Below are positions 24,886 through 43,690 of a DNA stretch of 64,000 nucleotides, piece after piece. Positions within the stretch are counted from its first letter, which is position 1; each line of letters opens with the position of its first letter. The DNA lies in assembly GCA_903929755.1 (NCBI GenBank), contig CAIYVZ010000052.1, positions 62,001-126,000 of the forward strand. Reading direction: 5' to 3'. The stretch is from an uncultured Acidobacteriia bacterium (lineage in GTDB: Bacteria; Acidobacteriota; Terriglobia; Bryobacterales; Bryobacteraceae). A program made the position numbers and the translations under genes. The notes under the pieces are model-generated. The model made no database searches. It was not told the DNA's origin and saw only the letters and a list, made by a program, of their open reading frames with translations.

Positions 24886-25671
24886 TTATTCCCCGCCGCT
24901 CCGGTGTTCACCACGTGAAGTCCAGGCCGCTTTCAGGTGATCGCGGTTCATTCTGGCGATCATTTCGAGCGGGATCTGCTTGGGGCATGCAGCTACACAC
25001 TCCCCAATATTTGTACAACTTCCAAACTGTTCCAGGCTCAGCTGCTCCACCATGCGGAGGGCGCGGCGAGAACGTTCCGCCTGGCCCTGCGGCAGTGTGC
25101 CGAGGTGAGAAATCTTCGCTCCCGTGAACAGGGCCGCCGCCGCATTCGGGCAGGCCGCCACACAGGCTCCGCAGCCAATACAGGCAGCAGCGTCCATGGC
25201 GATATCGGCAGCTTCCTTGGGGACGGAGATCGCGTTGCCATCGGGTGCGCTTCCGGTGCGGACGCTGACGTAGCCGCCGGCAGCGATAATACGGTCGAAA
25301 GCAGCACGATCGACAACCAGATCTTTCAGGACGGGGAATGCGGTGGCACGCCAGGGTTCCAGAAAGAGCTCTTCGCCATCCTTAAAGTGGCGCATATGCA
25401 ACTGGCAGATGGTGGTGCCTTTTTGGGGACCGTGAGCTACGCCGTTCACCATGAAACCGCACGAACCGCAGATACCTTCGCGACAGTCGTGTTCGAAGGC
25501 AATGGGCTCTTTGCCGTCGCTGATCAACTGTTCGTTGACCACGTCCAGCATTTCCAGGAACGACATGTCCTCACTTACATTGGGGGCGTCGTAACGCTCC
25601 ATGCGGCCAGGGGCTGCGGCATTGGCCTGCCGCCAAACATGCAGGGTTAAGTTCATCGAAGCCGGTTTCAT
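24886..25671 (-). CDS. sdhB: Succinate dehydrogenase/fumarate reductase iron-sulfur subunit
   Basis: This 261-residue protein carries electrons from FAD in SdhA to quinone. The [2Fe-2S] ligands are in CREGICGSC plus a Cys in [10 protein letters not shown]. The [4Fe-4S] set is [14 protein letters not shown], and the [3Fe-4S] set uses [14 protein letters not shown]. The sequence type matches the B-type complexes of Bacteroidota, Deltaproteobacteria and Acidobacteria. It starts with an ATGA overlap with the sdhA stop, ends the sdhCAB operon and is peripheral on the cytoplasmic face. Confidence 0.96.
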
Positions 25672-27581
25672 TTGTAACTCCGCTGCGCCGGGTGCACGTA
25701 ATCGAATGCCAGAGGTTCCTTATTCAGGATTGGTTCGGTGTCCTGCCCGGCATATTCCCAGGCGGCCGCGTACTGGAAATTCTCGTCGTCGCGCATGGCT
25801 TCGCCTTCCTCGGTTTGGTATTCCTCGCGGAAGTGGCCCCCGCAGCTTTCATTGCGGTGCAGGGCGTCGCGACACATCAGTTCGCCGAGTTCCAGGAAAT
25901 CCGCCACTCGCCCGGCGTTTTCCAGTTGCTGGTTCAGGTCTTCGCCGGAGCCTGGAACGTTCACATTATTCCAGAACTCGTGGCGTAAACCCTGTATTTG
26001 GGTGATCGCGTTCGAGAGGCCCGCGGCATTGCGGCCCATGCCGCAGTTGTCCCACATGATTTTGCCGAGTTCGCGGTGATAAGAGGAAACGGTCCGCTTG
26101 CCCTTGATGGAGAGCATCTGGGCCACCAGGTCGTTCACCTCTTTGGTGACAGCCGCGAATTCGGGGGCGCTGGTGTCCACCTTCTCCAGTTTATTGGAGG
26201 CCAGATAGTTGCCGAGCGTATAGGGGATCACAAAATAGCCGTCGGAAAGGCCCTGCATGAGGGCACTGGCACCGAGGCGGTTGGCACCGTGGTCAGAGAA
26301 GTTGGCCTCGCCGAGCACGAACATGCCGGGGATGGTGCTCATCAGTTGGTAATCCACCCAAAGGCCGCCCATCGTGTAGTGGATGGCGGGGTAGATACGC
26401 ATGGGGGCGGTGTAGGGATCTTCGCCCGTAATACGGTTGTACATCTCAAACAGGTTGCCGTAGCGCTCTTCAATGGCGCTGCGGCCGAGCCGATTGATGG
26501 AATCTGCGAAGTCCAGGTACACGCCGAGGCCGGTTTCGCCCACGCCGCGGCCCTCGTCACAGACGGCCTTGGCGGCACGGGAAGCCACGTCACGGGGAAC
26601 CAGGTTCCCAAAGCTGGGGTAGCGGCGTTCCAGGTAGTAGTCGCGTTCGTTTTCGGGGATCTGGGAGGGAGCGCGTTTGTCACCGCCCTTGAGCGGCACC
26701 CAGATGCGACCGTCGTTTCGGAGCGACTCCGACATCAGCGTCAGCTTCGACTGGTAGTCGCCGGAAACCGGAATGCAGGTGGGGTGGATCTGCGTGAAGC
26801 AGGGGTTCGCGAAGGCTGCGCCGCGCTTGTGGGCGCGCCAGATAGCCGTACAGTTGGAACCCTTGGCATTCGTAGAGAGATAGAAGACATTACCGTAGCC
26901 ACCGGTGGCAAGGATGACGGCGTCGGCCGCGTGCGACTCAATCTGGCCGGTGACCAGGTTGCGGGTGACGATGCCGCGGGCCTTGCCATTGATGATGACA
27001 AGGTCCAGCATTTCGGTCCGCGTATACATTTTCACGCTGCCGGCGTCAACCTGGGCTTCCAGCGCCTGGTAGGCGCCGAGAAGGAGTTGCTGTCCTGTCT
27101 GGCCCCGGGCATAGAAAGTGCGGGAGACCTGCGCGCCGCCGAAGGAACGGTTGGCGAGCGCTCCGCCGTATTCGCGGGCGAACGGTACGCCCTGCGCAAC
27201 GCACTGGTCGATAATGTTGACCGAGTTCTGCGCCAGGCGGTAGACGTTATATTCGCGGGCACGGAAATCGCCGCCTTTTACGGTGTCGTAAAAGAGGCGG
27301 TAGATGCTGTCGCCGTCATTCTGGTAGTTCTTCGCGGCATTGATGCCGCCCTGCGCGGCGATGGAATGGGCGCGCCGGGGGGAATCCTGGAAGCAGAAGC
27401 ACTTCACGTTGTAGCCGAGTTCACCGAGCGACGCAGCGGCGGATCCGCCTGCGAGGCCGGAACCGACCACGATCACGCTGAACTTGCGCTTATTGGCCGG
27501 ATTCACCAGCTTCATGTCGAAGCGGGACTTGTCCCAGGCCTGCTCGATAGGACCCGATGGAATTCTGGAGTCGAGTTTCAT
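25668..27581 (-). CDS. sdhA: Succinate dehydrogenase/fumarate reductase flavoprotein subunit
   Basis: This 637-residue protein has the FAD-binding [20 protein letters not shown] at about 39-58, the flavin-attachment region [16 protein letters not shown] with its His, and the active-site segment [25 protein letters not shown] and [20 protein letters not shown] follow. It oxidises succinate to fumarate, or the reverse. The ATG at 27581 overlaps the sdhC stop (TAATG). A longer upstream frame to 27803 is sdhC sequence read in another frame. Confidence 0.96.
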
Positions 27582-28279
27582 TAGAGTCTTTCGAAGAATG
27601 GCGGCAGGATTCCGGTCAGGGCTGCCAGTGGCATAGACGCGAAGCCCGCAAAGTAAAGTATGCCGACAGCATTGGCAAATTTCTGAATGCGCGGCGAGTG
27701 TTTCGGGTGATTGAAGCCGAGAGACTGGAACATGCTCTGCACTCCGTGGCGAAGGTGGGTGCAAAGCAGGGCCATCGCAATAATGTACGCTGCGGAGACC
27801 CACCAGACGCGGAAGCCGAAGACCATGTTCGAATAGACATCCGTCTCAGAGAACTGAGGGTGCGCGGAGCCAACCGTCAGGTGCAGAAGGTGATAAACAA
27901 TGAAAGCCGCGATGGTGGGCCCGGAGAGGTACATGGTGCGCGAGGCCGCAGTGGAGGCGCTGTTGGCCTTCTTCGCGTAGGCGGTGGGGCGGGCCTTATT
28001 GTTGATGCGCGCCAGTTGAACCGTGGTCAGGATGTGGAGGCCCACGCAGGCGAGAAGCCCGAGTCGGGCTCCCCAGAGGATTTCCGGTACGCTTTTCAGC
28101 GCGGCGGCGTAGTGGTTAATCGCGTCCGGTCCGAGAAATACCTGCAGGTTGCCCAGCAGGTGAACGGTGACGAAAAGGTAAAGTGCTGCTCCGGTCGCGG
28201 CCATTACGGCTTTTTTGACGATTACGGATGAAAACAGCGAACGTGCTGAATTCGGTGGAGCTAGTGCGGCTGTACTCAT
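27581..28279 (-). CDS. sdhC: Succinate dehydrogenase cytochrome b subunit (single-anchor type)
   Basis: This 232-residue membrane anchor has five predicted helices. Candidate heme-ligand His residues lie in [29 protein letters not shown] and [13 protein letters not shown], as in the di-heme B-type anchors. It passes electrons to quinone. There is no sdhD gene, which is normal for this type. It is the first gene of sdhCAB; its TAA overlaps the sdhA ATG by one base. Confidence 0.92.
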
Positions 28280-28645: not shown

Positions 28646-29860
28646 CTACTGGACTGACAGGAAAATATTGTCCTGTGTTTGGCCGCCCGCGCCCGGGGTG
28701 ATTACTTGCAGGGCGTTGTCGCCGACCGGGAGGTTTGCCGGCACGGTGATGTTGATCTGGTAAAGGCCTGCACCGATGAGGCCCACATACGCCGCGTTTA
28801 CCAGATTGTTGTTGATCAGAACCTGAACGGGAAAGCCCTGCTGCACGCGTGCGGAACCGCTGAAGACCTTGCCGGCGGGCACTGCGGGATTTGTGGGGCC
28901 GAAACCTACTCCATAGAGAACCAGATTCTCCCCTTTCTTAACGGGGCGGGTGGCGTAGGTGAAGCGATTGGCGGGTCCGGCCAGGTCGTAGGTGCCGCCC
29001 CCGTAGGCGCCACCACCGTTGGGTGTCAGGATCACCGCCGCCGGGTATTTTGCGTCAAGCAGGCTCAGAGACGGTGCCGCCTGGTTGATCTGGACTTGGG
29101 CACTGACGGGACCGTTAGGTGTGCTGAGCGTGACGGTAGCGCATCCGCGCAGGGAATCGTCGGGAGCCTGCAGGTTGACCTGTCCGGGGCTGGTGAACCA
29201 AAAGAAGGCCGGTTTGCCGTTGATGGTGGCGGTCAGGCCGCCGAGGGTGGTGGGGATATCCGAACTCAGTCCGTCCCAGATAGTGGTTCCACTGGCGAGG
29301 TTCTTGCCGTAAATGGAGATCCACGAGCCGGGTTGAATCATGACTCGGGAGTGGCCCAACGGAACAACCCCGCTGGGATTGATAGACGGCGTCACGATGG
29401 GCTGGGCCGTAATAGTGCCGGTGAGAGTCACGGTAAGGTCAAAGTGGTCAAGGTTGGGAGCGGGGGTGCTGATTGCGATAGTACCTGTACCAGAGCCGCC
29501 TTTGCCGGCGTACTGGCCGGTGCCACCGGTGATCACGAACGTTCCGCTAACCTTTTCACCCTCCGAGAGGGGAATGAAGAGAGTCAGGTCGAGGCGGTCC
29601 CCATTGGCAATCGTAATTGTGACGGCTGCCTCGATGTTTCGATTGCAAATATCGTCGCCTGTATCGAAGACGTCCATTTTCAGCTGCGCGGGGCCGCCGG
29701 GAGTCATGGTAACTGCGCCGCTTCCGGTGAAATTGAAAGTGCTGTTGGGGGCAGGACCGAGTGTGGCCGGGCCGGTCAGGGTAAAAGGCGTGGTTTGGGC
29801 AAAGATAAGCGGGACGAAAACCAGTACGGTAAGCAAGGGCCTGAGGACTCGAAGTGACAT
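28646..29860 (-). CDS. Secreted protein with Solibacter C-terminal domain (TIGR03437)
   Basis: This 404-residue protein has a signal peptide (about 1-21) and a beta-rich N-terminal domain (about 22-155) with a FVITGGTGQYAGKGGSG stretch typical of allene-oxide-cyclase-like or dirigent-like barrels. From about 165 to the end it carries the TIGR03437 domain: GSWISIYGKNLASG, PGQVNLQAPDD, YPAAVILTPNG, GENLVLYGVGFGPTNP and IGAGLYQINITVP. The function is unknown and the location is probably outside the cell. It is divergent from the nitrate assimilation operon across 194 bp. Confidence 0.85.
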   Translation of the reverse strand: MSLRVLRPLLTVLVFVPLIFAQTTPFTLTGPATLGPAPNSTFNFTGSGAVTMTPGGPAQLKMDVFDTGDDICNRNIEAAVTITIANGDRLDLTLFIPLSEGEKVSGTFVITGGTGQYAGKGGSGTGTIAISTPAPNLDHFDLTVTLTGTITAQPIVTPSINPSGVVPLGHSRVMIQPGSWISIYGKNLASGTTIWDGLSSDIPTTLGGLTATINGKPAFFWFTSPGQVNLQAPDDSLRGCATVTLSTPNGPVSAQVQINQAAPSLSLLDAKYPAAVILTPNGGGAYGGGTYDLAGPANRFTYATRPVKKGENLVLYGVGFGPTNPAVPAGKVFSGSARVQQGFPVQVLINNNLVNAAYVGLIGAGLYQINITVPANLPVGDNALQVITPGAGGQTQDNIFLSVQ

Positions 29861-30054: not shown

Positions 30055-31554
30055 GTGCTTTTACCGCTTCTCGAACGCGCCAGACTGGGCGATCCGCTTA
30101 CTCGCTATACGGATCCGGAATTTACCGCGCCTGAACTAACTGCCCTCATCCCCTGCTCGGTGCCTGCTCCGGGCGAGCAGTACCGCTTCCACTTCGACAT
30201 GACGAAGTGCATTGGTTGCCGTTGCTGTGAGGTGGCATGCAATGAACAGAACGGCAATCCGGCCGACTTGCGCTGGCGTCGTGTGGGTGAAATTGAAGGC
30301 GGCACGTACCCTTTCACGCAGCGCCACTATCTTTCCATGGGCTGCAATCATTGCGTGGATGCGGCCTGTCTGAAGGGCTGTCCGGTGGAGGCCTACACCA
30401 AGAGCGACCTGACGGGTCTGGTGCTGCACAGCGCCGATATCTGCATCGGCTGCCAGTACTGCACGTGGAATTGCCCCTATGGCGTGCCCCAGTATAATCC
30501 CGAGCGCGGCGTGGTGGGTAAGTGCGATATGTGCCACAACCGCCTGGCCGATGGCGACGAGCCAGCCTGCGTCAACGCCTGTCCGGAAGAAGCGATTCAG
30601 ATTGAAATCGTGAATATTGCGGCCTGGGTTGCGGATCATTCCACGGCGAACGCTCCGGGTCTGCCGCCCGCCCACGAGACGATTTCCACCACCCGCATTA
30701 CCTTGCCCGCGCAACTGGGGCCGGAACTGGAAAAGGCGGACCACACGCGGGTTCGGCCGGAACATCCGCACTGGCCGCTGGTGGTGATGCTGACGCTGAC
30801 CCAGCTTTCGGTGGGCGCTTTTGCGGGCCTTGCGCTGCTGGATGTGGCGCGCCCGATCGCAGCGATTGCTGCCTTGCTGGTGGCGTTTCTTTCGCTCGGG
30901 GCCTCTACGCTACACCTTGGCCGTCCGATACACGCATATCGCGCCATCAAGATGTGGAAACGCAGCTGGTTGAGCCGCGAAGTCCTGTTGTTCTCTCTGT
31001 TCGCCGGGAGTGCTTCGGCGTTTGCCGGCGCCACGCTCTTTGGTTTGCCTCGGGTGGCGGCGATCCCGACGGTGTTGCTGGGTTTGGCGGGTGTCACGGC
31101 CAGCGCCTTTATTTATCTGGTGCCAGCCCGTCCGGCCTGGAACAACTGGCATACTCTGGCTGACTTTCATCTGACGGGGCTGGTGCTGGGGCCGGCTTTC
31201 CTACGGGCTCTGGGTGTGAATGTTCCGGTGGCGCTGATCGCCTCGTTTGCCGCCCTGCAATTGTTCAACCAGGTTCTGAAGCTGCTGCGACTGGTGAGTT
31301 CGGAAGAATTCGAACTGCGCGCTTCGGCTCGCCTGCTGTCTCAGGATCTGAAACGGATTCTGGTGGCGAGGCTGGCGCTGCTGGTGATCGGCGGCATAGG
31401 GCTGACTCTGGCCGACTTCCCGATTCCGGCGCTCATTCTGGCGCTGGCCGGCGAACTGGCCGGACGTTATCTCTTCTTCGTTTCCGTGGTGCCGCGCAAT
31501 ATGGCGCTGCCATGGTTGACACAAGGGCGGCTGACACAAGGGAGGGCGGCATGA
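30055..31554 (+). CDS. Ferredoxin-type electron-transfer subunit fused to a DmsC-like membrane anchor
   Basis: This 499-residue protein starts at a GTG preceded by GGAAGGAGG (30040-30048). Residues about 45-210 are a DmsB/NrfC-like ferredoxin with four Cys clusters, starting CIGCRCCEVAC (52-62) and followed by CNHCVDAACLKGCPVEA, CIGCQYCTWNCPYGV and CDMC with CVNACPEE. Residues about 240-490 form around eight membrane helices of the DmsC anchor type (LHLGRPIHAYRAIKMWKRSW). It should pass electrons from menaquinol to the nitrate reductase encoded next; its stop overlaps that start as ATGA. The last residues hold a 15-bp duplication (LTQGR twice). Confidence 0.88.
   Translation: MLLPLLERARLGDPLTRYTDPEFTAPELTALIPCSVPAPGEQYRFHFDMTKCIGCRCCEVACNEQNGNPADLRWRRVGEIEGGTYPFTQRHYLSMGCNHCVDAACLKGCPVEAYTKSDLTGLVLHSADICIGCQYCTWNCPYGVPQYNPERGVVGKCDMCHNRLADGDEPACVNACPEEAIQIEIVNIAAWVADHSTANAPGLPPAHETISTTRITLPAQLGPELEKADHTRVRPEHPHWPLVVMLTLTQLSVGAFAGLALLDVARPIAAIAALLVAFLSLGASTLHLGRPIHAYRAIKMWKRSWLSREVLLFSLFAGSASAFAGATLFGLPRVAAIPTVLLGLAGVTASAFIYLVPARPAWNNWHTLADFHLTGLVLGPAFLRALGVNVPVALIASFAALQLFNQVLKLLRLVSSEEFELRASARLLSQDLKRILVARLALLVIGGIGLTLADFPIPALILALAGELAGRYLFFVSVVPRNMALPWLTQGRLTQGRAA
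31516..31545. repeat. 15-bp tandem duplication at the anchor C-terminus
   Basis: Two 15-bp units, 31516-31530 and 31531-31545, encode LTQGR twice and differ at two positions. In the second unit ACAAGGGCGG has become ACAAGGGAGG, giving a GGGAGGG ribosome binding site immediately before the nitrate reductase ATG at 31551. Confidence 0.85.
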
Positions 31555-33716
31555 ACTGGAAGCGACTCGCGGGCATCGACAATCTGAGCGAAGAGTACGC
31601 CTACGGCCAGGATCCGGTTCACGGTTACGTTTCGGCAAAGAAGATTGCCGACAAATGGGTGGCTACCACCTGTGGGTATTGTTCGGTCGGCTGCGGGATG
31701 CTGGTCGGGACCAAAGATGGTAAGGCGGTTGCGGTTCGGGGCAACCCGGAACACCCTGTCAATCTGGGCAAGCTTTGCCCGAAGGGTCTGTCCGAACACT
31801 ATACGCTACAGGCGAAGAGCCGGGCGACGAAGCCGCTGCTGAAACGCAACGGAAAATTCGAACCCATTTCATGGGATGCCGCACTGACCACCATGGTGGA
31901 GAAATTTCGCGGCGTTCAGGCGAAGTATGGCGCAGGCGCTCTGGGCGTTATCAGCACCGGACAGTTGGTGACGGAGGAATTTTACACGCTGGGCAAGCTG
32001 GTGCAGTTGGGGTTCGGGACTTCGAACTTCGACGGCAACACCACTCTCTGCATGGCCAGCGCTGTAGCTGGATACAAGCGCAGTTTTGGCAGCGACGGAC
32101 CACCGGGGTCTTATGCGGACCTGGAAACGGCCGACGTAATCCTGCTGATCGGCGCCAATGTCGCCGACAACCACCCGATTCTCTGCGGGCGGCTGGAGAA
32201 GAACAAGAAGGCGACGCTGATTGTCGCCGACCCTCGCGTGACCAAGACCGCGATGCTGGCCGATATCTTTCTGCCAGTGAAACCCCGGTCGGATATCGCG
32301 CTGCTGAACGGGATCGCCCACATATTGATACGCGATGGCCTGGTGAATCGCGCATACATTGAGGCTCACACCACCGGCTATGCGGAACTCTGCGCATTTC
32401 TGGAGAAGTTTACGCCCGAACACGTGGCTCAGGTGACGGGCCTGGGTGTGGAAACTATTGAGCGCGTGGCCATGCTGTACGGGCGCGCGAAAGCGGCAAC
32501 TATCGGCTGGACCATGGGCGTGAACCACTCCACGCAAGGCGCCGAGACGGTTAGCGCCATCAATAATCTTGCCCTGCTGACGGGAAATATCGGAAAGTCG
32601 GGCGCTTCGCCGTTCTCCATCACCGGGCAGTGCAACGCCATGGGGACGCGGGAAACCGGTTTCACCTCAGGGCTGCCTGGCTACCGGAAATTCGAGAGCG
32701 CAGAAGACCGGGAGGAATTGGCGGGAATCTGGAAAATTGATGTGGAGCGAATTCCGACAGCGAGGGGGTTGTCGTATCCCGACATTATTGAAGCTGCTCT
32801 TGCAAAGAAGGTTCGGGCGCTTTGGATCATCGCCACCAATCCGGTGGTTTCGTTTCCGAACTACGACGTTTTGATTCAGGCCTTTGAAAACCTGGAATTT
32901 CTGGTGGTTCAGGATGGCTTCCACCCGACCCCGACCACGGAACTGGCTGACCTGGTTCTTCCTGCCGCCGTATGGGGCGAAAAAGAGGGCACCTACACCA
33001 ACTCCGAACGCCGGGTCAGCAAGGTGAACAAAGCTGTGGAACCTCCCGGCGAAGCTCGCAGCGACTTTGACATCTTCGTCGCACTGGCGGACAAGTTGGG
33101 CGTTTGTGCCGAGATCTTCCCTGGCTGGACCTCAACCCGCGATGCATTTGAAGAGTGGAAAAAGGTATCTGCCGGACGCCTCTGTGACTACAGCGGCATG
33201 ACGTGGGAAGCCATTGAGCGCGAAGGCGGGATTCAGTGGGGCGGCGAACGCCTCTATGCCGACGGTCAGTTTGAGACGGTTGATGGCAAGGCAAAGCTGT
33301 TCAAAGTGGAATGTGAACCCTTCCCGGAGCAGCCGGGTGGCGGGTTCCCGCTGATATTGAACACAGGTCGCACTGTAGAGCACTGGCATACGCGGACCAA
33401 GACGGGCGAGGTTGCGATCCTGGACAGCATGTCGCCGCGTGCCTGGCTGGAAATGAACCCCCGGGACGCGAAGAAGCTGGGGTTGAAGATGCACGACGAG
33501 ATTTCGCTGGTTTCGCGCCGGAGCCGGGTGGATGCGATTGAACTGCGTCTTACCGAGATTGTGGCTCCGGGGCAGGTTTTTATGCCGTTTCACTTTGCGG
33601 AGACAAATGTCAACCGCGCCACGCAGAGCGCGTTCGACCCGATCTCGCGGGAACCAAATTACAAGCAGTGCGCAGTGCGGATTGAAAGAACGCCGAGTGC
33701 GGGGAGAGTGAATTGA
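31551..33716 (+). CDS. nasA: Assimilatory nitrate reductase catalytic subunit
   Basis: This 721-residue molybdopterin oxidoreductase has an N-terminal [4Fe-4S] site CGYCSVGC (41-48) with the fourth Cys in GKLCPKG (76). A Cys in NTTLCMASAVAGYKRSFGSD (167) is the likely Mo ligand, as in NarB/NasA/NapA enzymes. Further family motifs are GWTMGVNHSTQGAE and GQCNAMGTRETG. There is no Tat signal, so it is cytoplasmic and assimilatory rather than periplasmic NapA. The ATG has GGGAGGG upstream and overlaps the anchor gene by four bases. Confidence 0.93.
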   Translation: MNWKRLAGIDNLSEEYAYGQDPVHGYVSAKKIADKWVATTCGYCSVGCGMLVGTKDGKAVAVRGNPEHPVNLGKLCPKGLSEHYTLQAKSRATKPLLKRNGKFEPISWDAALTTMVEKFRGVQAKYGAGALGVISTGQLVTEEFYTLGKLVQLGFGTSNFDGNTTLCMASAVAGYKRSFGSDGPPGSYADLETADVILLIGANVADNHPILCGRLEKNKKATLIVADPRVTKTAMLADIFLPVKPRSDIALLNGIAHILIRDGLVNRAYIEAHTTGYAELCAFLEKFTPEHVAQVTGLGVETIERVAMLYGRAKAATIGWTMGVNHSTQGAETVSAINNLALLTGNIGKSGASPFSITGQCNAMGTRETGFTSGLPGYRKFESAEDREELAGIWKIDVERIPTARGLSYPDIIEAALAKKVRALWIIATNPVVSFPNYDVLIQAFENLEFLVVQDGFHPTPTTELADLVLPAAVWGEKEGTYTNSERRVSKVNKAVEPPGEARSDFDIFVALADKLGVCAEIFPGWTSTRDAFEEWKKVSAGRLCDYSGMTWEAIEREGGIQWGGERLYADGQFETVDGKAKLFKVECEPFPEQPGGGFPLILNTGRTVEHWHTRTKTGEVAILDSMSPRAWLEMNPRDAKKLGLKMHDEISLVSRRSRVDAIELRLTEIVAPGQVFMPFHFAETNVNRATQSAFDPISREPNYKQCAVRIERTPSAGRVN

Positions 33717-36133
33717 TGGAACGTTTGATCGTCGTCGGAAACGGAATGGTGGGTGTCGCCTGCCTCGAAAACATCCTCGCGCATAAGAAAAAGTTCGACG
33801 TTACGGTTTTCGGCGACGAAACGCACGCGAACTATAACCGGATTCTGCTCTCCAGCGTTCTTGCCGGCGAGCGGTCGGCCGACGAGATCACCATCAACGG
33901 TCTGGACTGGTACCAGAAGAACGGTATTGGGCTGCGTTTGGGCGTGCGCATTGTCAACGTAAACACCACGCTGCGGACGGTGACGGGCGATGACGGCGGC
34001 ATGATGCAGTACGACAAGCTCATCATCGCCACCGGGTCCGGAGCTTTTATTCCGCCGATGGATGGCATCTACCGCCGGAATGTTTTCACCTTTCGCAATA
34101 TGGAAGACACGTTCGGGATGATGCGGGTCGCCGGGGAAGGCAAGCGGGCCGTGGTGATTGGCGGCGGCCTGTTGGGGCTGGAAGCCGCGCGCGGCCTGCA
34201 AATACAAGGTTGCGAGACCACCGTGATCCATATTGTGGACACGCTGATGAATAACCAACTCGATTCCACGGGCGGGGATCTGCTGAAGCGGCGGATGGAG
34301 GAACTGGGGATTCAGGTTCTGGCCGGGCGTCGGGTGAAGTCCATTCTGGGCCGCGATGAGGTGGAAGCGCTGGAGTTTATGGATGGCGAGCGGATCCCCG
34401 CAGATCTGGTCTGCATCGCCACCGGAATTCGCCCCAACGCCGATCTGGCGCGGGCTGCCGGTATAGCCTGTGGCCGCGGCATTACGGTCAACGATTATCT
34501 GGAGACTTCCGACCCTCGAGTTTTCGCGGTGGGTGAATGTACGGAACACCGCGGCGAAGTCTACGGTCTGGTAGCCCCCCTGCTGGAGCAGGCCAAAGTC
34601 CTGGCTGCGACGCTTACGGATAACCGTGGCCCGGTTTTTGAGGGCTGGAAGCCGGCGGCGAAGCTCAAGATCATGGGGCTGGATGTGTTTTCCGCAGGCG
34701 AGTCTCTGGAAACTCCCGGGACGGATGCGGTTCGCTTCGATGACCCCGGTGCCGGGGTCTACAAGAAACTGTTGGTTCGCGACAACAAGCTGGTGGGCTG
34801 CGTTTTGGTGGGCGATGCGTCCGACAGCAACCGCTACATGGACTGGCTCCGCAGCGAAACGGATCTGACGGTCCGTCGCAAGAGCCTGCTGTTTCCCGAA
34901 CCGGCGGCCGATAAGGGTTCCTCGATTGCGGATATTCCGGACTCCGAAACAGTTTGCGGCTGCATGGGCGTTACCAAGGGCCGGATTATTTCGGCCATCC
35001 ACGATAACGGGATTCGTTCCATGGCGCAGTTGAAGGAATGCACCCGGGCAACCACGGGCTGCGGTAGTTGCTCCGGCGTCTGCGAAGGGCTGCTGAAGGC
35101 TGTCTCCCCGGAATTCGAAGAAGATACGAAGAGGGTGATCTGTAAGTGTCTGCCGTTCTCTCAGGACAACCTCCGCGAAATCATCCAAACGCAGAAGCTC
35201 AAGAGCGTTCAGGAAGTTCTGGAGATTTATGGCAACGGAATTGGCTGCGAGATCTGCAAACCCGCGCTCAGCTATCTGGTGGATGTGGTGTGGTGCGGCG
35301 ATCACGAAGAAGACCGGTCCGCGCGTTTTATTAATGATCGCGTGCACGCCAATATCCAGAATGACGGGACGTTTTCCGTGGTCCCCCGCATGCGCGGCGG
35401 CGTAACAACACCTGCGGAGCTGCGTCGCATTGCCGAGGTCGCCGAGAAGTACAAGGTGCCGCTGGTAAAAGTAACGGGCAGCCAGCGTATTGATCTGCTG
35501 GGTATTAAGAAGCAGGATCTTCCCAACGTCTGGCGTGATTTGGGAATGCCGAGTGGCCAGGCTTACACCAAGGGCGTCCGCATGGTGAAAACCTGTGTGG
35601 GCACCGAGTTCTGCCGGTTTGGCGTTCAGGACGCCATGGGGACTGGCATCGAGCTGGAACGCCGGCTGGAGAATCTTTTCACGCCGCATAAGACGAAGTT
35701 GGGCGTGACCGGTTGCCCCCGCAATTGCGCCGAAGTGACCGTGAAGGACATCGGGCTCATCGGACAGGAGGGTAGCTGGCAGGTTGTGGTGGGAGGCGCG
35801 GCCGGCAAGCACGTCCGCAAGGCCGACCTTCTCGTCACGGTGGAGACGACGGAAGAGGCAATTGAAGCGACGCTGCTGTTTTTCCAGTACTACCGCGAGC
35901 ATGGCCACTACCTGGAGCGAACCTACGATTTCGTGGAACGCCTGGGGATGGAGCGGGTCCGCAAAGAAACCGTCTATGCCAACGCGAAGGACAAGAAGAA
36001 TCTCTTGCGGCGGCTACAGAAGTCCAAGGCCTTCTCCCAGGATGCGTGGAAGGAAGGTTCCACGCCGGTGAATACGACGCAGTTCATTCAGATTCAGCCT
36101 ATGGAAGGCGCCAGCCGAGAGGTGGTTCAGTAA
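33716..36133 (+). CDS. nirB: Nitrite reductase [NAD(P)H] large subunit
   Basis: This 805-residue protein reduces nitrite to ammonium. An N-terminal FAD/NADH module (VVGNGMVG; IATGSGAFIPP; GGGLLGLEAARGL) is followed by two BFD-like [2Fe-2S] segments (CGCMGVTKG with CGSC; CKCLPFSQ with CEICKPAL). The C-terminal siroheme/[4Fe-4S] domain has TCVGTEFCRFG and TGCPRNCAE, which supply the four cluster Cys. The ATG at 33716 overlaps the nasA stop as TGATG; a TTG one codon earlier is also possible. It is cytoplasmic and works with the adjacent NirD. Confidence 0.96.
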   Translation: MERLIVVGNGMVGVACLENILAHKKKFDVTVFGDETHANYNRILLSSVLAGERSADEITINGLDWYQKNGIGLRLGVRIVNVNTTLRTVTGDDGGMMQYDKLIIATGSGAFIPPMDGIYRRNVFTFRNMEDTFGMMRVAGEGKRAVVIGGGLLGLEAARGLQIQGCETTVIHIVDTLMNNQLDSTGGDLLKRRMEELGIQVLAGRRVKSILGRDEVEALEFMDGERIPADLVCIATGIRPNADLARAAGIACGRGITVNDYLETSDPRVFAVGECTEHRGEVYGLVAPLLEQAKVLAATLTDNRGPVFEGWKPAAKLKIMGLDVFSAGESLETPGTDAVRFDDPGAGVYKKLLVRDNKLVGCVLVGDASDSNRYMDWLRSETDLTVRRKSLLFPEPAADKGSSIADIPDSETVCGCMGVTKGRIISAIHDNGIRSMAQLKECTRATTGCGSCSGVCEGLLKAVSPEFEEDTKRVICKCLPFSQDNLREIIQTQKLKSVQEVLEIYGNGIGCEICKPALSYLVDVVWCGDHEEDRSARFINDRVHANIQNDGTFSVVPRMRGGVTTPAELRRIAEVAEKYKVPLVKVTGSQRIDLLGIKKQDLPNVWRDLGMPSGQAYTKGVRMVKTCVGTEFCRFGVQDAMGTGIELERRLENLFTPHKTKLGVTGCPRNCAEVTVKDIGLIGQEGSWQVVVGGAAGKHVRKADLLVTVETTEEAIEATLLFFQYYREHGHYLERTYDFVERLGMERVRKETVYANAKDKKNLLRRLQKSKAFSQDAWKEGSTPVNTTQFIQIQPMEGASREVVQ

Positions 36134-36495
36134 TGTGGACGCGAATTACAGGCATTGAGAACATTCCGTTGCGCGAGGGCCGGACGGTGGACCTGGTGGA
36201 CCGCGAAATCGCGATCTTCAATCTGGGGACACGCTTCGCAGCCATTGATGCGCAGTGTCCACATCGCGGGGGGCCGCTCTGCGACGGGATCGTCACCGGG
36301 TGCGGACCATCGCTCGCCGACGCTCCGGTTCGGGGACACGCGGTGGTTTGTCCCCTGCACGGCTGGAAGATTGATCTGGACTCGGGGTCTGTTTTGAAAC
36401 CAGATGTGTCGGTCCGCGTGGAAACCTATGAAGTTCGAGTGGATAGCGGAATTATTGAAATCAATGTGCCAAAGGCAAGAAAGGTGGCTGCGTAA
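36133..36495 (+). CDS. nirD: Nitrite reductase small subunit (Rieske type)
   Basis: This 120-residue Rieske-fold protein has intact ligands: CPHRGG (Cys42, His44) and CPLHGW (Cys73, His76). NirD proteins from enterobacteria lack some of these residues, while those of many other bacteria keep the cluster, so this one probably carries a [2Fe-2S] centre. It partners NirB. Both ends overlap neighbours by one base (TAATG), so the operon is tightly coupled. Confidence 0.93.
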   Translation: MWTRITGIENIPLREGRTVDLVDREIAIFNLGTRFAAIDAQCPHRGGPLCDGIVTGCGPSLADAPVRGHAVVCPLHGWKIDLDSGSVLKPDVSVRVETYEVRVDSGIIEINVPKARKVAA

Positions 36496-37742
36496 TGACA
36501 CTCAAAGGGTTTGCAAAGGCGGGCCATCCGCCCACGTTGCTGTCGGCTTTTCTGTATTTCGACATCAGCTTCATGATTTGGGTAATGTTGGGCCCGCTCG
36601 GACCTTTCCTGAGTGAAAGCCTGAAGCTCTCGGCGGGCCAAAAAGGCTTATTGACGGCGGTTCCCCTGCTGGGTGGAGCGTTCTTCCGATTGATTCTGGG
36701 GCCCATGACGGAGCGCCTCGGCGGTCGCCGAACAGGGCTGATTGGCCTCACTATCACCTTTCTGCCGCTGCTGTTGGGCTGGAAGTTCGCGGCTACTTTT
36801 ACTGATTTCCTGGGCGTTGGCATTCTGCTGGGCGTGGCCGGGGCGAGTTTTGCGGCCGCTTTGCCCCTGGCGAGCGCCTGGTATCCGCCGGAATATCAGG
36901 GTTTGGCCATGGGGATCGCCGGGGCGGGGAACTCCGGGACGCTGTTCGCGACCCTGTTCGCGCCTCGCCTGGCCAAAATATTCGGCTGGCACCAGGTATT
37001 TCTGTTCGCGATGATCCCTGTGGCGATCGTCTGGGTCCTGTTCGTGATCCTGGCGAAGGACGCCCCACGGAAAGCGCCACCGAAGGGTCTGAGTGACTAC
37101 AAAGAGGCTTTGAAAATTCGCGATACCGGGTGGTTCTGCTTCCTGTACAGCCTGACGTTCGGCGGCTTCTCCGGGCTGGTTAGCTTCCTGACCATCTTCT
37201 TCTTTGATCAGTATCATTTGACCAAAGTGCAGGCGGGCGATTTGACGACGCTGGTGGTGGTTTTCGGAAGTTTCCTCCGACCAGTAGGCGGGCTTCTTTC
37301 CGACAGAATCGGCGGATACAGGATGCTGCTGGTCCTGCTCGCGGGCGCGGCACTCTCTCTCGGCGCAGTCGCTACGCTCCCGAGCGTAACCTTCGCTGTC
37401 CTGTTTCTAGTGCTGACGATGGGGATGCTGGGAATGGGCAACGGCGCGGTCTTTCAACTGGTTCCGCAGCGGTTTCCGGAGCGCGTGGGCCTGATTACCG
37501 GTCTGGTGGGCGCAGCTGGCGGCGTGGGCGGTTTTCTGCTCCCGAACGTGCTGGGTAGCCTGAAGGGCCTGACCGGCACGTTCGCCTGGGGACTTGGGAC
37601 CTGCGCGGTGGGTCTGGGGGCAGGCGCGGTGACGCTGTTCCTCCTCGGACCGGTTTGGCGCCGTACCTGGAAACCCGAGTCCGCAGTGCGTGCCGGTCTG
37701 GTTCCGGTGAATGAGGAAGTTGGTTACCAACAGGCGGCGTAG
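36495..37742 (+). CDS. Nitrate/nitrite MFS transporter (NarK/NasA type)
   Basis: This 415-residue transporter has twelve predicted helices. The nitrate/nitrite porter signature lies early (LILGPMTERLGGRRTGLIGL, with the conserved Arg pair region). The nitrate motifs appear as GVAGASFAAALPLASAWYPP in the first half and GMGNGAVFQLVPQRFPERVG in the second. It starts with a TAATG overlap with nirD and completes a nitrate uptake-to-ammonium operon. Whether it is a proton symporter or a nitrate/nitrite antiporter cannot be decided from the sequence. Confidence 0.93.
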   Translation: MTLKGFAKAGHPPTLLSAFLYFDISFMIWVMLGPLGPFLSESLKLSAGQKGLLTAVPLLGGAFFRLILGPMTERLGGRRTGLIGLTITFLPLLLGWKFAATFTDFLGVGILLGVAGASFAAALPLASAWYPPEYQGLAMGIAGAGNSGTLFATLFAPRLAKIFGWHQVFLFAMIPVAIVWVLFVILAKDAPRKAPPKGLSDYKEALKIRDTGWFCFLYSLTFGGFSGLVSFLTIFFFDQYHLTKVQAGDLTTLVVVFGSFLRPVGGLLSDRIGGYRMLLVLLAGAALSLGAVATLPSVTFAVLFLVLTMGMLGMGNGAVFQLVPQRFPERVGLITGLVGAAGGVGGFLLPNVLGSLKGLTGTFAWGLGTCAVGLGAGAVTLFLLGPVWRRTWKPESAVRAGLVPVNEEVGYQQAA

Positions 37743-37784: not shown

Positions 37785-39092
37785 TTGCGACACATTTTTC
37801 GCGCTACTTTGCTTGGCTGCCTGTTTGGCGCTTTGCTTCCGGCCCAAAAGGCTCCGGAACCGTTTTCTCCCTCAAATTACGTGAACAAGTTTTTGCCTTC
37901 CTGGATTCGGGTGGGAGGCGAGAATCGTACCCGGTTTGAGGGGTACTCGGGGCTCGGCTTCGCCCCGAACCAGTCTGACGGCTACTGGCTGAGCCGCAGT
38001 CGGCTGTCCGTGATGCTGCTGCCGAAACCCTGGCTGCATATCTACGGCGAGGGCCAGGACTCGCGTGCGATTGGCAAGCAGCCTGGCCAGCCTCCTTATG
38101 AAAATGTCTGGGATATCCACCAGGCTTACGTGGAACTGGGCGATATGAAGAAGGGGCGGCTCGCGATGCTGGTTGGCCGCCAGGAGTTGAATTTCGGCGA
38201 TAACCGAGTGATCGGCGCGGTGAACTGGACGAATGCCAACCGAACCTTCGACGTGGTTCGCGGAATGGTTCGGCTGGGCGATAACCGGCTGGAAGTCTTT
38301 GCCGCCTCCGTGGTTGTGAACGTAAATGACACCTGGGATCACCACCAGCAGGGGAATAACATTCACGGTATTTATGCCGAGTTGCCTAAACTGATTCCCC
38401 ACGTGAACATCCAGCCTTACGTTTTGTGGAGGCTTCAGCCACGTGTGAAAAACGAGGCGGGGGTGGTGGCGAATCTGAACGAGAAGATTCCCGGGGTTCG
38501 GATTGCCCTGGACTTGCCCCGCGGCCTGGATGCGAAGGTGGAGATGACGAGGGAATTCGGGACCCTCGGCTCGGATCGCGTGCAGGCGTGGCTGGGCCAC
38601 TGGGAATTGGGTCGGACCTGGAAGAAATGGCCCTTGAAGCCGCGCCTGTGGGGCGAATATAACTTCATGAGCGGCGACGCGAATGCAAAGGACGGCATTC
38701 GGGGTACCTACGATCCCCTGTATCCCACGGTGCACGATAAGTACGGCTTCGCGGACCAGTTCGGGGGCCGCAACATGAAAAACGTGCGGTGGGGGGCGGA
38801 AATGAAGCTGCCCCGGAGCGTAGCAGGGGTTCTGGAGCTGAACGACTGGCGGCTTGCCTCGCCGGTGGATGGAATCTACACCAGCCAGGGTGCCGTTATT
38901 GCACGGTCAATAACGGGCAAGGCGGGAACCCACGTGGGTAACGAAGTGGACTTTATCACCACCTGGAAGATGTTCGGACCAGTGCAGGCGGGCGCCGGAA
39001 TCGGCTACATTCTCCCGGGTGAGTTCCTGAAAAACACGACGGCGGGTAAGCACTACCTGTATCCCTACATCATGTTTACGTACAAGCTGTAG
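37785..39092 (+). CDS. Outer-membrane porin (alginate-export family)
   Basis: This 435-residue protein has a short signal peptide and then many amphipathic beta strands, including WIRVGGENRTRFEGYSG, LGDMKKGRLAMLVGRQELNF and the C-terminal YPYIMFTYKL that ends in an aromatic/Leu strand. The pattern fits the alginate_exp porin family. No in-frame ATG lies near the N-terminus; a TTG at 37785 is the likely start. It lies 42 bp after the transporter and may serve nitrate entry across the outer membrane; that role is inferred from position only. Confidence 0.8.
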   Translation: MRHIFRATLLGCLFGALLPAQKAPEPFSPSNYVNKFLPSWIRVGGENRTRFEGYSGLGFAPNQSDGYWLSRSRLSVMLLPKPWLHIYGEGQDSRAIGKQPGQPPYENVWDIHQAYVELGDMKKGRLAMLVGRQELNFGDNRVIGAVNWTNANRTFDVVRGMVRLGDNRLEVFAASVVVNVNDTWDHHQQGNNIHGIYAELPKLIPHVNIQPYVLWRLQPRVKNEAGVVANLNEKIPGVRIALDLPRGLDAKVEMTREFGTLGSDRVQAWLGHWELGRTWKKWPLKPRLWGEYNFMSGDANAKDGIRGTYDPLYPTVHDKYGFADQFGGRNMKNVRWGAEMKLPRSVAGVLELNDWRLASPVDGIYTSQGAVIARSITGKAGTHVGNEVDFITTWKMFGPVQAGAGIGYILPGEFLKNTTAGKHYLYPYIMFTYKL

Positions 39093-42769: not shown

Positions 42770-43690
42770 ATGGAGAAGAAGCCAGTCACCGATTCCGGCC
42801 TGTCGAGACAGGTGGAGGGGACCCTGACCAGGAGCATCCGGCGGGACGGCCAGTTTAACGTTCGGCGGGTAGGCAGGGCGCGGCAGGCCTTCCATCCGTG
42901 GCTGGTGGTGGTCAACATGAGTTGGCCCTGGTTTGTGGCTTTGGTTGGTGGGCTGTACGCATTGGTGAATATCTCGTTCGCGTTGCTCTATTTTTTGATG
43001 GGGCCTGACGCGGTGCAGGGTTCCGCCGCGGCCACCGAAGGGCGGCGGTTCCTGAATGACTGCTTCTTCAGTGGCCATACGCTGACCACGGTGGGCTATG
43101 GGAATCTGGCGCCGGTGGGGGTGGTGGCCAATGTGACAGCGACCCTGGAGGCGCTGGTTGGGTTGCTCGCGTTCTCGGTGATCACGGGTCTGCTGGTAAC
43201 TCGGGCGTCGCGCCCTTCCGCGAGAGTTGAGTTCAGCCGGTCCGCACTGGTGGCCCCGTACGCGGACGGCATGGCGCTCATGTTCCGGGTGGCGAACCAA
43301 AGATCAAACAATCTGATGGAACTGGAAGCGCGGGTCCTGATGGTGAAGGTGGTGCAGGAGGCAGGCAAGACGCGGCGGGAAGTGGACTATCTGCCCCTCG
43401 AAATGGATAAGGTGGAGATGTTTCCGCTCACGTGGACGGTGGTTCATCCCATTACGAAGGACAGTCCGATGTGGGGTTTGGACACTCGAACCCTGGAGGC
43501 GCTGCAAGTGGAATTTATCGTGATGCTGCGAGGCTTTGACGACACCTTTAGTCAGGTGGTCCACACCCGGTTTTCGTACCGCTCTGACGAACTGGTTTGG
43601 AACGCGAAATTTGTTTCCGCGTTTTATGTCGCGCCCGACGGGGGCTATGTTTTGGATTTGGACCGTGTCAGCGACTTCGAGAAGCTGTAG
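42770..43690 (+). CDS. Inward-rectifier-type potassium channel (KirBac)
   Basis: This 306-residue protein has the KirBac plan: slide helix near the N-terminus, TM1 (about 50-75), a pore loop with GHTLTTVGYGN (selectivity filter TVGYG), TM2 (about 120-143) and a large cytoplasmic beta domain (about 155-300) with FRVANQRSNNLMELEARVLM. These channels conduct K+ and are gated by lipids or ligands. It is divergent from argS with a 37-bp gap and convergent with the glucosidase. Confidence 0.93.
   Translation: MEKKPVTDSGLSRQVEGTLTRSIRRDGQFNVRRVGRARQAFHPWLVVVNMSWPWFVALVGGLYALVNISFALLYFLMGPDAVQGSAAATEGRRFLNDCFFSGHTLTTVGYGNLAPVGVVANVTATLEALVGLLAFSVITGLLVTRASRPSARVEFSRSALVAPYADGMALMFRVANQRSNNLMELEARVLMVKVVQEAGKTRREVDYLPLEMDKVEMFPLTWTVVHPITKDSPMWGLDTRTLEALQVEFIVMLRGFDDTFSQVVHTRFSYRSDELVWNAKFVSAFYVAPDGGYVLDLDRVSDFEKL

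Follow-up and report, generated by a model that had tools for sequence, protein, structure and literature searches.

What supplies electrons to the nitrate reductase NasA encoded in a 64,000-nucleotide stretch of genome from an uncultured Acidobacteriia bacterium (contig CAIYVZ010000052.1, positions 62,001 to 126,000; the whole stretch is called the window below)? The gene that precedes nasA encodes a single protein resembling the DmsB and DmsC subunits of dimethyl sulfoxide (DMSO) reductase, and we consider it highly probable that the two products form a menaquinol:nitrate oxidoreductase of two polypeptides, tethered to the membrane on its cytoplasmic side, which serves nitrate assimilation. 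Donors known for NasA, NasC and NarB are ferredoxin, the NasB flavoprotein, NirBD and fused modules, as gathered partly from the available text of PMC3475470 and PMC4378227 and partly from general background; here the candidate is a quinol module. The available text of PMC4378227 left the donor of the Sulfobacillus NasC open, that of a 2018 paper reported genes for assimilatory nitrate reductases in a number of Acidobacteria and named no donor (PMC5900883), and the available portions of PMC10100899, PMC6896113, PMC3578206 and PMC5459899 hold no information on donors. In the searched literature, outside which most subscription journals lie, we found nothing that describes an assimilatory nitrate reductase linked to quinol or a DmsB-DmsC fusion of this kind. 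Our argument draws on domains, cysteines, quinol residues, operon structure, co-occurrence and loop charges, all read from sequence; the host genome measures 6.86 Mb in 212 contigs, at 97.9% completeness.

A four-cluster ferredoxin and a quinol anchor in one polypeptide

The fusion gene lies on the plus strand at 30055-31554, starts with GTG preceded by GGAAGGAGG, and encodes 499 residues: a ferredoxin domain with four [4Fe-4S] sites (approximately residues 42-184) followed by an eight-helix anchor with a putative quinol site (approximately residues 238-482). Pfam places Fer4_11 at residues 91-183 and DmsC (PF04976, above cut-off) at residues 238-399 within one open frame, in agreement with an earlier reading of the letters alone (the sequence-only reading), which had described a DmsB-DmsC fusion in a single protein. 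Against the model of the DMSO reductase B subunit, residues 42-184 score 159.1 bits, below the equivalog cut-off of 214.1. All 16 cluster cysteines of Escherichia coli K-12 DmsB align with cysteines of the fusion (residues 52-176; 30208-30582, plus strand), as in the four-cluster B module of DmsABC-type complex iron-sulfur molybdoenzymes (CISM), and His65 and Glu87 of K-12 DmsC align with His287 (codon 30913-30915, plus strand) and Glu309 (codon 30979-30981, plus strand). According to the available part of PMC8076601, His65 acts in quinol protonation, quinol oxidation being blocked when it is replaced, and Glu87 is important for coordinating quinone/quinol. In a set of 81 fusion sequences, the window's and those of 80 related loci, 14 cluster cysteines, His287 and Glu309 are invariant, and Cys52 and Cys55 occur in all but one, probably L073, whose N-terminus is disturbed.

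In an AlphaFold model of the fusion the membrane domain forms eight long helices, and most of its block means exceed 90 in predicted local distance difference test (pLDDT) score. The best solved match of this domain is the menaquinone-bound polysulfide reductase PsrC (2vpw_C; template-modelling score 0.73 by target length in Foldseek; Z 22.5 over 240 residues at 3.0 angstrom in VIA-align), with chain C of alternative complex III next; the fold comparison bears on the membrane domain, and the ferredoxin half is hardly tested by it. The PF04976 match, the His287/Glu309 pair and the PsrC fold are those of a DmsC/NrfD anchor with quinol residues, and a predicted quinol-oxidising function, of the menaquinol type, is supported by the conservation of these residues and by the modelled fold. 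The host presumably makes menaquinone, because it has two genes of family PF02621, which we take to belong to the futalosine route to menaquinone. The menB route was also considered, and no match in the host lies above cut-off.

Conservation of the fusion-NasA pair

The stop codon of the fusion gene and the start codon of nasA share an ATGA overlap (31551-31554, plus strand); re-reading of the frames bore out both this overlap and the extent of the fusion gene as first proposed. A search of genome contigs for the fusion gave 340 relatives, of which the best 80 were examined, and in all 80 NasA lies directly downstream on the same strand. A NasA start could be assigned at 79 of these loci (not at L042); the spacing is -4 in 66 of the 79 related pairs and never exceeds 118 bases. 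The closest named relative of the fusion, at 89% identity over the best segment, comes from a Bryobacterales metagenome-assembled genome. An arrangement kept in 80 of 80 loci is far beyond chance.

Among 151 genomes sampled from the class, the fusion (E<1e-200) occurs in 33, NasA (at least 1280 bits) occurs in the same 33, and the two are adjacent in every one; two further genomes have DmsB-like partial matches only. In the phylum sample of 247 genomes, 15 have the fusion and exactly these 15 have NasA; all belong to the window's class. Eight other phylum genomes gave partial matches to the fusion model (1e-64 to 1e-84), several of them stop-broken or shorter than the model, and were left out of the fusion count. 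The NasA threshold sits in a wide gap, the next full-length NasA-like scores under 1280 bits being 644 (class) and 603 (phylum). The co-occurrence survey suggested along with the sequence-only reading thus came out in its favour: a fusion mainly without nasA was not seen, and 33 of 33 class and 15 of 15 phylum genomes carry both genes. In the plasmid collection, 700 records matched the fusion query, none with a single place covering 80% of it.

Two of the 80 loci are labelled outside the Acidobacteriota, L029 as Acidimicrobiia and L064 as Rhodanobacteraceae. The phylum sample of the L064 genome matches the window's own, at the same places and with the same E-values; L064 therefore belongs to the window's phylum, and its label looks misassigned.

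Identity of the catalytic subunit

The NasA protein (31551-33716, plus strand; 721 residues) contains PF04879 (Fe4S4), PF00384 (Molybdopterin) and PF01568 (Molydop_binding), all above cut-off, and no further domain by Pfam. Cysteines at 41, 44, 48 and 76 are accompanied by the Nas/Nap motif NFDGNTTLCMASA; the protein has a molybdenum-ligand cysteine in Nas/Nap context and an N-terminus without a twin-arginine translocation (Tat) signal, as had been claimed for it. Scores against the dmsA_ynfE model (159 bits; cut-off 777.7) and the narG model (35.3 bits; cut-off 1084.15) are those of neither a DmsA-type nor a NarG-type subunit. A tree of 30 sequences unites the window's NasA with 11 chosen relatives in one clade (100/100), separate from Nap, Nas and formate dehydrogenase references; the deeper order is not resolved, haloarchaeal NasA stands on a long branch, and DmsA and YnfF are far off. 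All 12 clade members have the Cys-Met motif, which is shared by the Nap and Nas references with a readable pattern (Deinococcus and Acetobacter escaped the pattern).

Could this protein instead be a formate dehydrogenase, with the fusion passing its electrons to menaquinone? Its top NCBIfam score, 574.5, is with the Fdh-alpha model, below the cut-off of 666.25, and formate dehydrogenases come second among its solved sequence matches. The first of those matches, however, is to 2jim, a periplasmic nitrate reductase (474 bits), and the catalytic cysteine is followed by methionine (LCMASA), as in Nap and Nas, and not by histidine. E. coli FdhF has selenocysteine (read as X) then His, and the host's own NAD-linked formate dehydrogenase has Cys-His (VCHSP). 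The operon, moreover, serves nitrate and nitrite, and the host has that separate formate dehydrogenase at 920 bits. We rejected the assignment on the active site, Cys-Met instead of Cys-His, and give it hardly any credence. Six host proteins carry the Molybdopterin domain: this NasA, the NAD-linked formate dehydrogenase and NuoG of complex I, these two above their cut-offs, and three below every cut-off (one type-II DMSO-reductase-like, one Qrc/Psr-like and one unassigned). None of the six passes the NarG or NapA cut-off.

Orientation in the membrane

Lysine and arginine in the fusions average 15.1 per 91 residues in the ferredoxin-side loops and 3.2 per 64 in the opposite loops. With loop boundaries transferred by alignment, the ferredoxin-side loops are the more basic in 81 of 81 fusions, by count and by density. 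Five DmsC-type controls with a Tat-exported catalytic subunit (E. coli DmsC, E. coli YnfH and the Citrobacter, Rhodovastum and Azospirillum anchors) show the reverse bias, with 2-7 against 8-12 Lys plus Arg. From the loop charges and the positive-inside rule, the fusion would be inverted relative to DmsC and would face the cytoplasm. No twin-arginine pattern occurs in any of the 81 fusions; a crude pattern finds one in a single NasA N-terminus among 79 relatives (L023) and none in the window's NasA, leaving the window and 78 of 79 relatives without the periplasmic, Tat-exported catalytic subunit of DmsABC. The sequence-only reading had pictured a membrane-tethered complex facing the cytoplasm, and the uniform loop charges and absent Tat signals support that picture. 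His287 and Glu309 border the loop on the ferredoxin side of the membrane domain, which probably puts quinol oxidation near the cytoplasmic face. With the quinol and nitrate sites on the same side, the reaction should be electroneutral; that of NarGHI, by contrast, is not.

These predictions bear on a small chance that the complex is primarily a respiratory menaquinol:nitrate reductase, dissimilatory or redox-balancing, with assimilation secondary. A quinol link is typical of respiration, and the available text of PMC5900883 reports that KBS 96 and G. mallensis reduce nitrate to nitrite, with only nasA genes found and no dissimilatory nitrate reductase identified; KBS 96 has the fusion-NasA pair (L072). 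Yet an operon with NirBD and NarK, or with NirA nearby, looks assimilatory, and a cytoplasmic quinol site would bring no direct proton-motive gain. The KBS 96 phenotype, moreover, is not assignable to the pair, because a second Nas-type cluster (L147) is also present and could account for its nitrate reduction.

This second arrangement was seen in the Acidobacteriota at L105 (2424-8065), L106 (4337-9911), L107, L145, L146, L147, L148 and L150. A NasC-like molybdoenzyme with a CMVSA motif and a separate four-cluster ferredoxin are present in 8 of 8 loci examined, a Rieske-like protein in 7 of 7 scanned for Rieske, and NarK is nearby in 6 of 8, in some within a NarK-containing frame of about 750 residues. 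A membrane protein in L105 matches NarI weakly, at 22.3 bits against a cut-off of 22.9. The arrangement may represent another membrane-linked nitrate reductase of the Nas branch.

The operon and alternative donors

Downstream of nasA, and also on the plus strand, NirB (33716-36133; 805 residues), the large subunit of NADH-nitrite reductase, overlaps nasA by one base and scores 875.7 bits with TIGR02374 (cut-off 578.35). The Rieske-type small subunit NirD (36133-36495; 120 residues; Pfam Rieske; TIGR02378 72.3 bits, slightly below the cut-off of 74.65) overlaps nirB by one base, and a NarK-family nitrate/nitrite transporter of the major facilitator superfamily (36495-37742; 415 residues; TIGR00886 269.6 bits, below the cut-off of 311.7; MFS_1 above cut-off) overlaps nirD by one base. 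The NirBD and nitrate porter anticipated by the sequence-only reading are thus in place, with NirD and NarK just below their NCBIfam cut-offs.

Such an operon invites a scheme like that of Paracoccus, in which NADH would drive the complex, the FAD of NirB and NirD would feed NasA, and the fusion would be a mere tether or side route. NirB and NirD are co-encoded with one-base overlaps in the window, and for P. denitrificans the presumed suppliers of NasC are NasB (NirB) and NasG (NirD) (available part of PMC3475470). Across the 33 fusion-NasA genomes of the class, however, NirB at E<=1e-100 is found in 16 (14 above cut-off, two split in pieces) and in none of the other 17, which include four single-contig assemblies, and still all 33 keep the fusion beside NasA; a mere tether would hardly retain four clusters and quinol residues. 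On the 17 genomes without a NirB match we rejected NirBD and NADH as the general donor to NasA, and we judge the scheme improbable. The sequence-only reading had called the fusion the only electron-transfer partner, which is too strong from the locus alone, with NirBD co-encoded there; its view of a menaquinol-drawing fusion as the donor is supported.

At the 80 loci, NirB (at least 55% identity on the available stretch) is present in 42 and was not found in 11 that end at most 3.5 kb past NasA or in 27 with longer DNA. A NirA-type reductase occurs in 21 of the 80 and a CysJ-like diflavin reductase in 19, and no such locus has NirB. The nitrite module is exchangeable, whereas the nitrate pair is not. 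By title, the loci with NirA are mostly of Acidobacteriaceae (for example L043, L054, L055, L074 and L078), with NirA in either orientation to the pair; KBS 96 (L072), also of this family, has NirBD, so that the NirA form is not universal in the Acidobacteriaceae. Of the loci with the pair, L054 comes from Acidipila rosea DSM 103428 and L074 from Granulicella aggregans M8UP14, both cultured.

A Bacillus-type NasB or a BFD-tailed NasC would carry a BFD domain. The only [2Fe-2S] domains of this family in the host genome are the two in the operon's NirB, which speaks against either donor. A donor of NasB/NasC type elsewhere, the sequence-only reading's own reservation, was accordingly not found, other flavoproteins being possible; the BFD search gave no further BFD-type donor in the host, where no diflavin search was made. 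A ferredoxin-dependent NasA of the cyanobacterial or haloarchaeal type, with the fusion serving another process, seems very improbable to us. The enzyme lacks extra domains and is close in length to NarB (about 710 residues; available part of PMC7331816), but the fusion adjoins NasA and co-occurs with it, and the haloarchaeal NasA examined, from Halocatena, has no such partner and stands alone with a transporter and a ferredoxin nitrite reductase.

Several observations weigh against a menaquinol-driven complex. One class genome in 530 contigs (G286) has a NasA fragment (370 positions, 686 bits) without a fusion match, and an NADH or NADPH flavoprotein donor is possible in any single genome, a diflavin reductase being nearby in 19 of 80 loci. 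The fusion model has a pLDDT of 69-81 around His287/Glu309, and its ferredoxin half is poor (mean 66.7). When the sequences were scanned without an alignment, exactly eight helices came out in only 44 of the 81 (these 44 carry the same ferredoxin-side charge bias), and a sixth control, a DmsC of Tat type from the Acidobacteriota (L110), shows no bias, with 9 against 9. No NCBIfam model passes its cut-off with NasA: after Fdh-alpha come the NasC model (510.8; cut-off 1100) and haloarchaeal NasA (507.1; cut-off 1000), and the protein is a member of neither equivalog.

Setting these points beside the conservation, co-occurrence and charge evidence, we infer that fusion and NasA would act as one complex, with electrons flowing from menaquinol to nitrate. 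Nitrate would be admitted by a porin and imported by NarK. Menaquinol would be oxidised near the cytoplasmic face of the eight-helix domain, at His287/Glu309. From there electrons would travel along the fusion's own four [4Fe-4S] clusters to NasA, entering its [4Fe-4S] and molybdopterin centre for the reduction of nitrate to nitrite. NirBD would then reduce nitrite to ammonium with NADH in operons of this type; in many Acidobacteriaceae, NirA with the diflavin reductase presumably takes this step.

The candidate porin, an outer-membrane protein of the Alginate_exp family (37785-39092, plus strand; 435 residues; PF13372, 173.1 bits), is probably encoded by the final gene of the operon. The family also adjoins NarK or NirB in nitrate clusters of Spirosoma and Acetobacter, and this analogy suggests a role as a nitrate porin; it was matched in only 2 of the 80 related loci. 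A scan of the operon for sigma-70 promoters and terminators gave a result at chance level. On the minus strand, at 24886-28279, genes judged from open reading frame translations to resemble succinate dehydrogenase/fumarate reductase B, A and C are divergent from the nitrate operon, and the frames in between include one at 28646-29860 without a Pfam match. An inward-rectifier (Kir-type) potassium channel with an IRK_C domain is encoded at 42770-43690.

Relation to known systems

NarGHI is likewise a cytoplasm-facing quinol:nitrate oxidoreductase with a four-cluster subunit, and its anchor NarI binds two b haems and has a quinol site on the periplasmic side. The present system differs in having a DmsC/NrfD-type anchor, with no Pfam match to Nitrate_red_gam (NarI) at E<=0.001 and so not of the NarI di-haem b kind, and in having NasA, not NarG, as catalytic subunit. 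PsrABC, the source of the best solved fold for the membrane domain (2vpw, menaquinone bound), has separate subunits, is periplasmic and acts on a sulfur substrate. SoeABC is a cytoplasm-facing sulfite:quinone oxidoreductase that oxidises sulfite, reduces quinone and has separate B and C genes. By description our system can be set beside it, the same His65/Glu87 pair being listed for the NrfD-like anchor of SoeABC in the available text of PMC8076601. The E. coli S/N-oxide reductases DmsABC and YnfFGH (CISM) share the four-[4Fe-4S] B module, the eight-helix DmsC anchor, the His65/Glu87 pair and a molybdenum-bis(pyranopterin guanine dinucleotide) subunit in the operon; here, in contrast, B and C are one polypeptide, there is no Tat export, the charge bias is inverted, and the catalytic subunit belongs with Nas/Nap, not with DmsA.

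With NasA, NasC and NarB the enzyme shares a predicted cytoplasmic location, a cysteine ligand in Cys-Met and an operon with NirBD and NarK. NasA-like proteins elsewhere have 783 (Deinococcus), 879 (Rhodobacter), 969 (Comamonadaceae), 1172 (Spirosoma) and 1317 (Acetobacter) residues, against 721 plus a quinol module here. The annotation of the Acetobacter protein gives it a fused flavoprotein part of sulfite-reductase type, the Spirosoma protein is followed by a rubredoxin, and the Deinococcus protein by a hypothetical protein. The system would work like a cytoplasm-facing DmsABC or SoeABC; it is not a member of DmsABC, lacking Tat export and a DmsA-type subunit, and it is not NarGHI. What is new is the pairing of a nitrate reductase of the Nas branch with a quinol anchor that is fused to its four-cluster module.

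Implications for nitrate assimilation

In a survey of 1,568 sequences, the clade of NasA/NasC, AioA, NapA and one formate dehydrogenase lineage was described as lacking canonical four-cluster or anchor subunits, an absence used there in an account of the origin of those subunits (available text of PMC7331816). The present system looks like a clear exception to that statement, as far as the available text goes, and it shows modular swapping. It also carries a warning for annotation, in that a gene labelled nasA cannot be read as encoding a soluble enzyme.

If our reading is right, complex I would conserve energy from NADH before nitrate receives the electrons. Approximate potentials are -75 mV for menaquinol, -320 mV for NADH and +420 mV for nitrate/nitrite. 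Replacing NADH by menaquinol would thus be expected to bring an energetic gain, and the reading predicts a lower energy cost than that of ferredoxin- or NADH-driven nitrate assimilation.

For a group of soil bacteria, these results propose an electron source for nitrate use. More tentatively, and with somewhat more doubt than confidence, we suggest that nitrate assimilation in this soil phylum may be wired into the respiratory chain through menaquinol, with the reductase doubling as a redox valve, and that the phylum may have done so twice with Nas-branch enzymes, once through the DmsBC fusion and once through the four-cluster/Rieske set.

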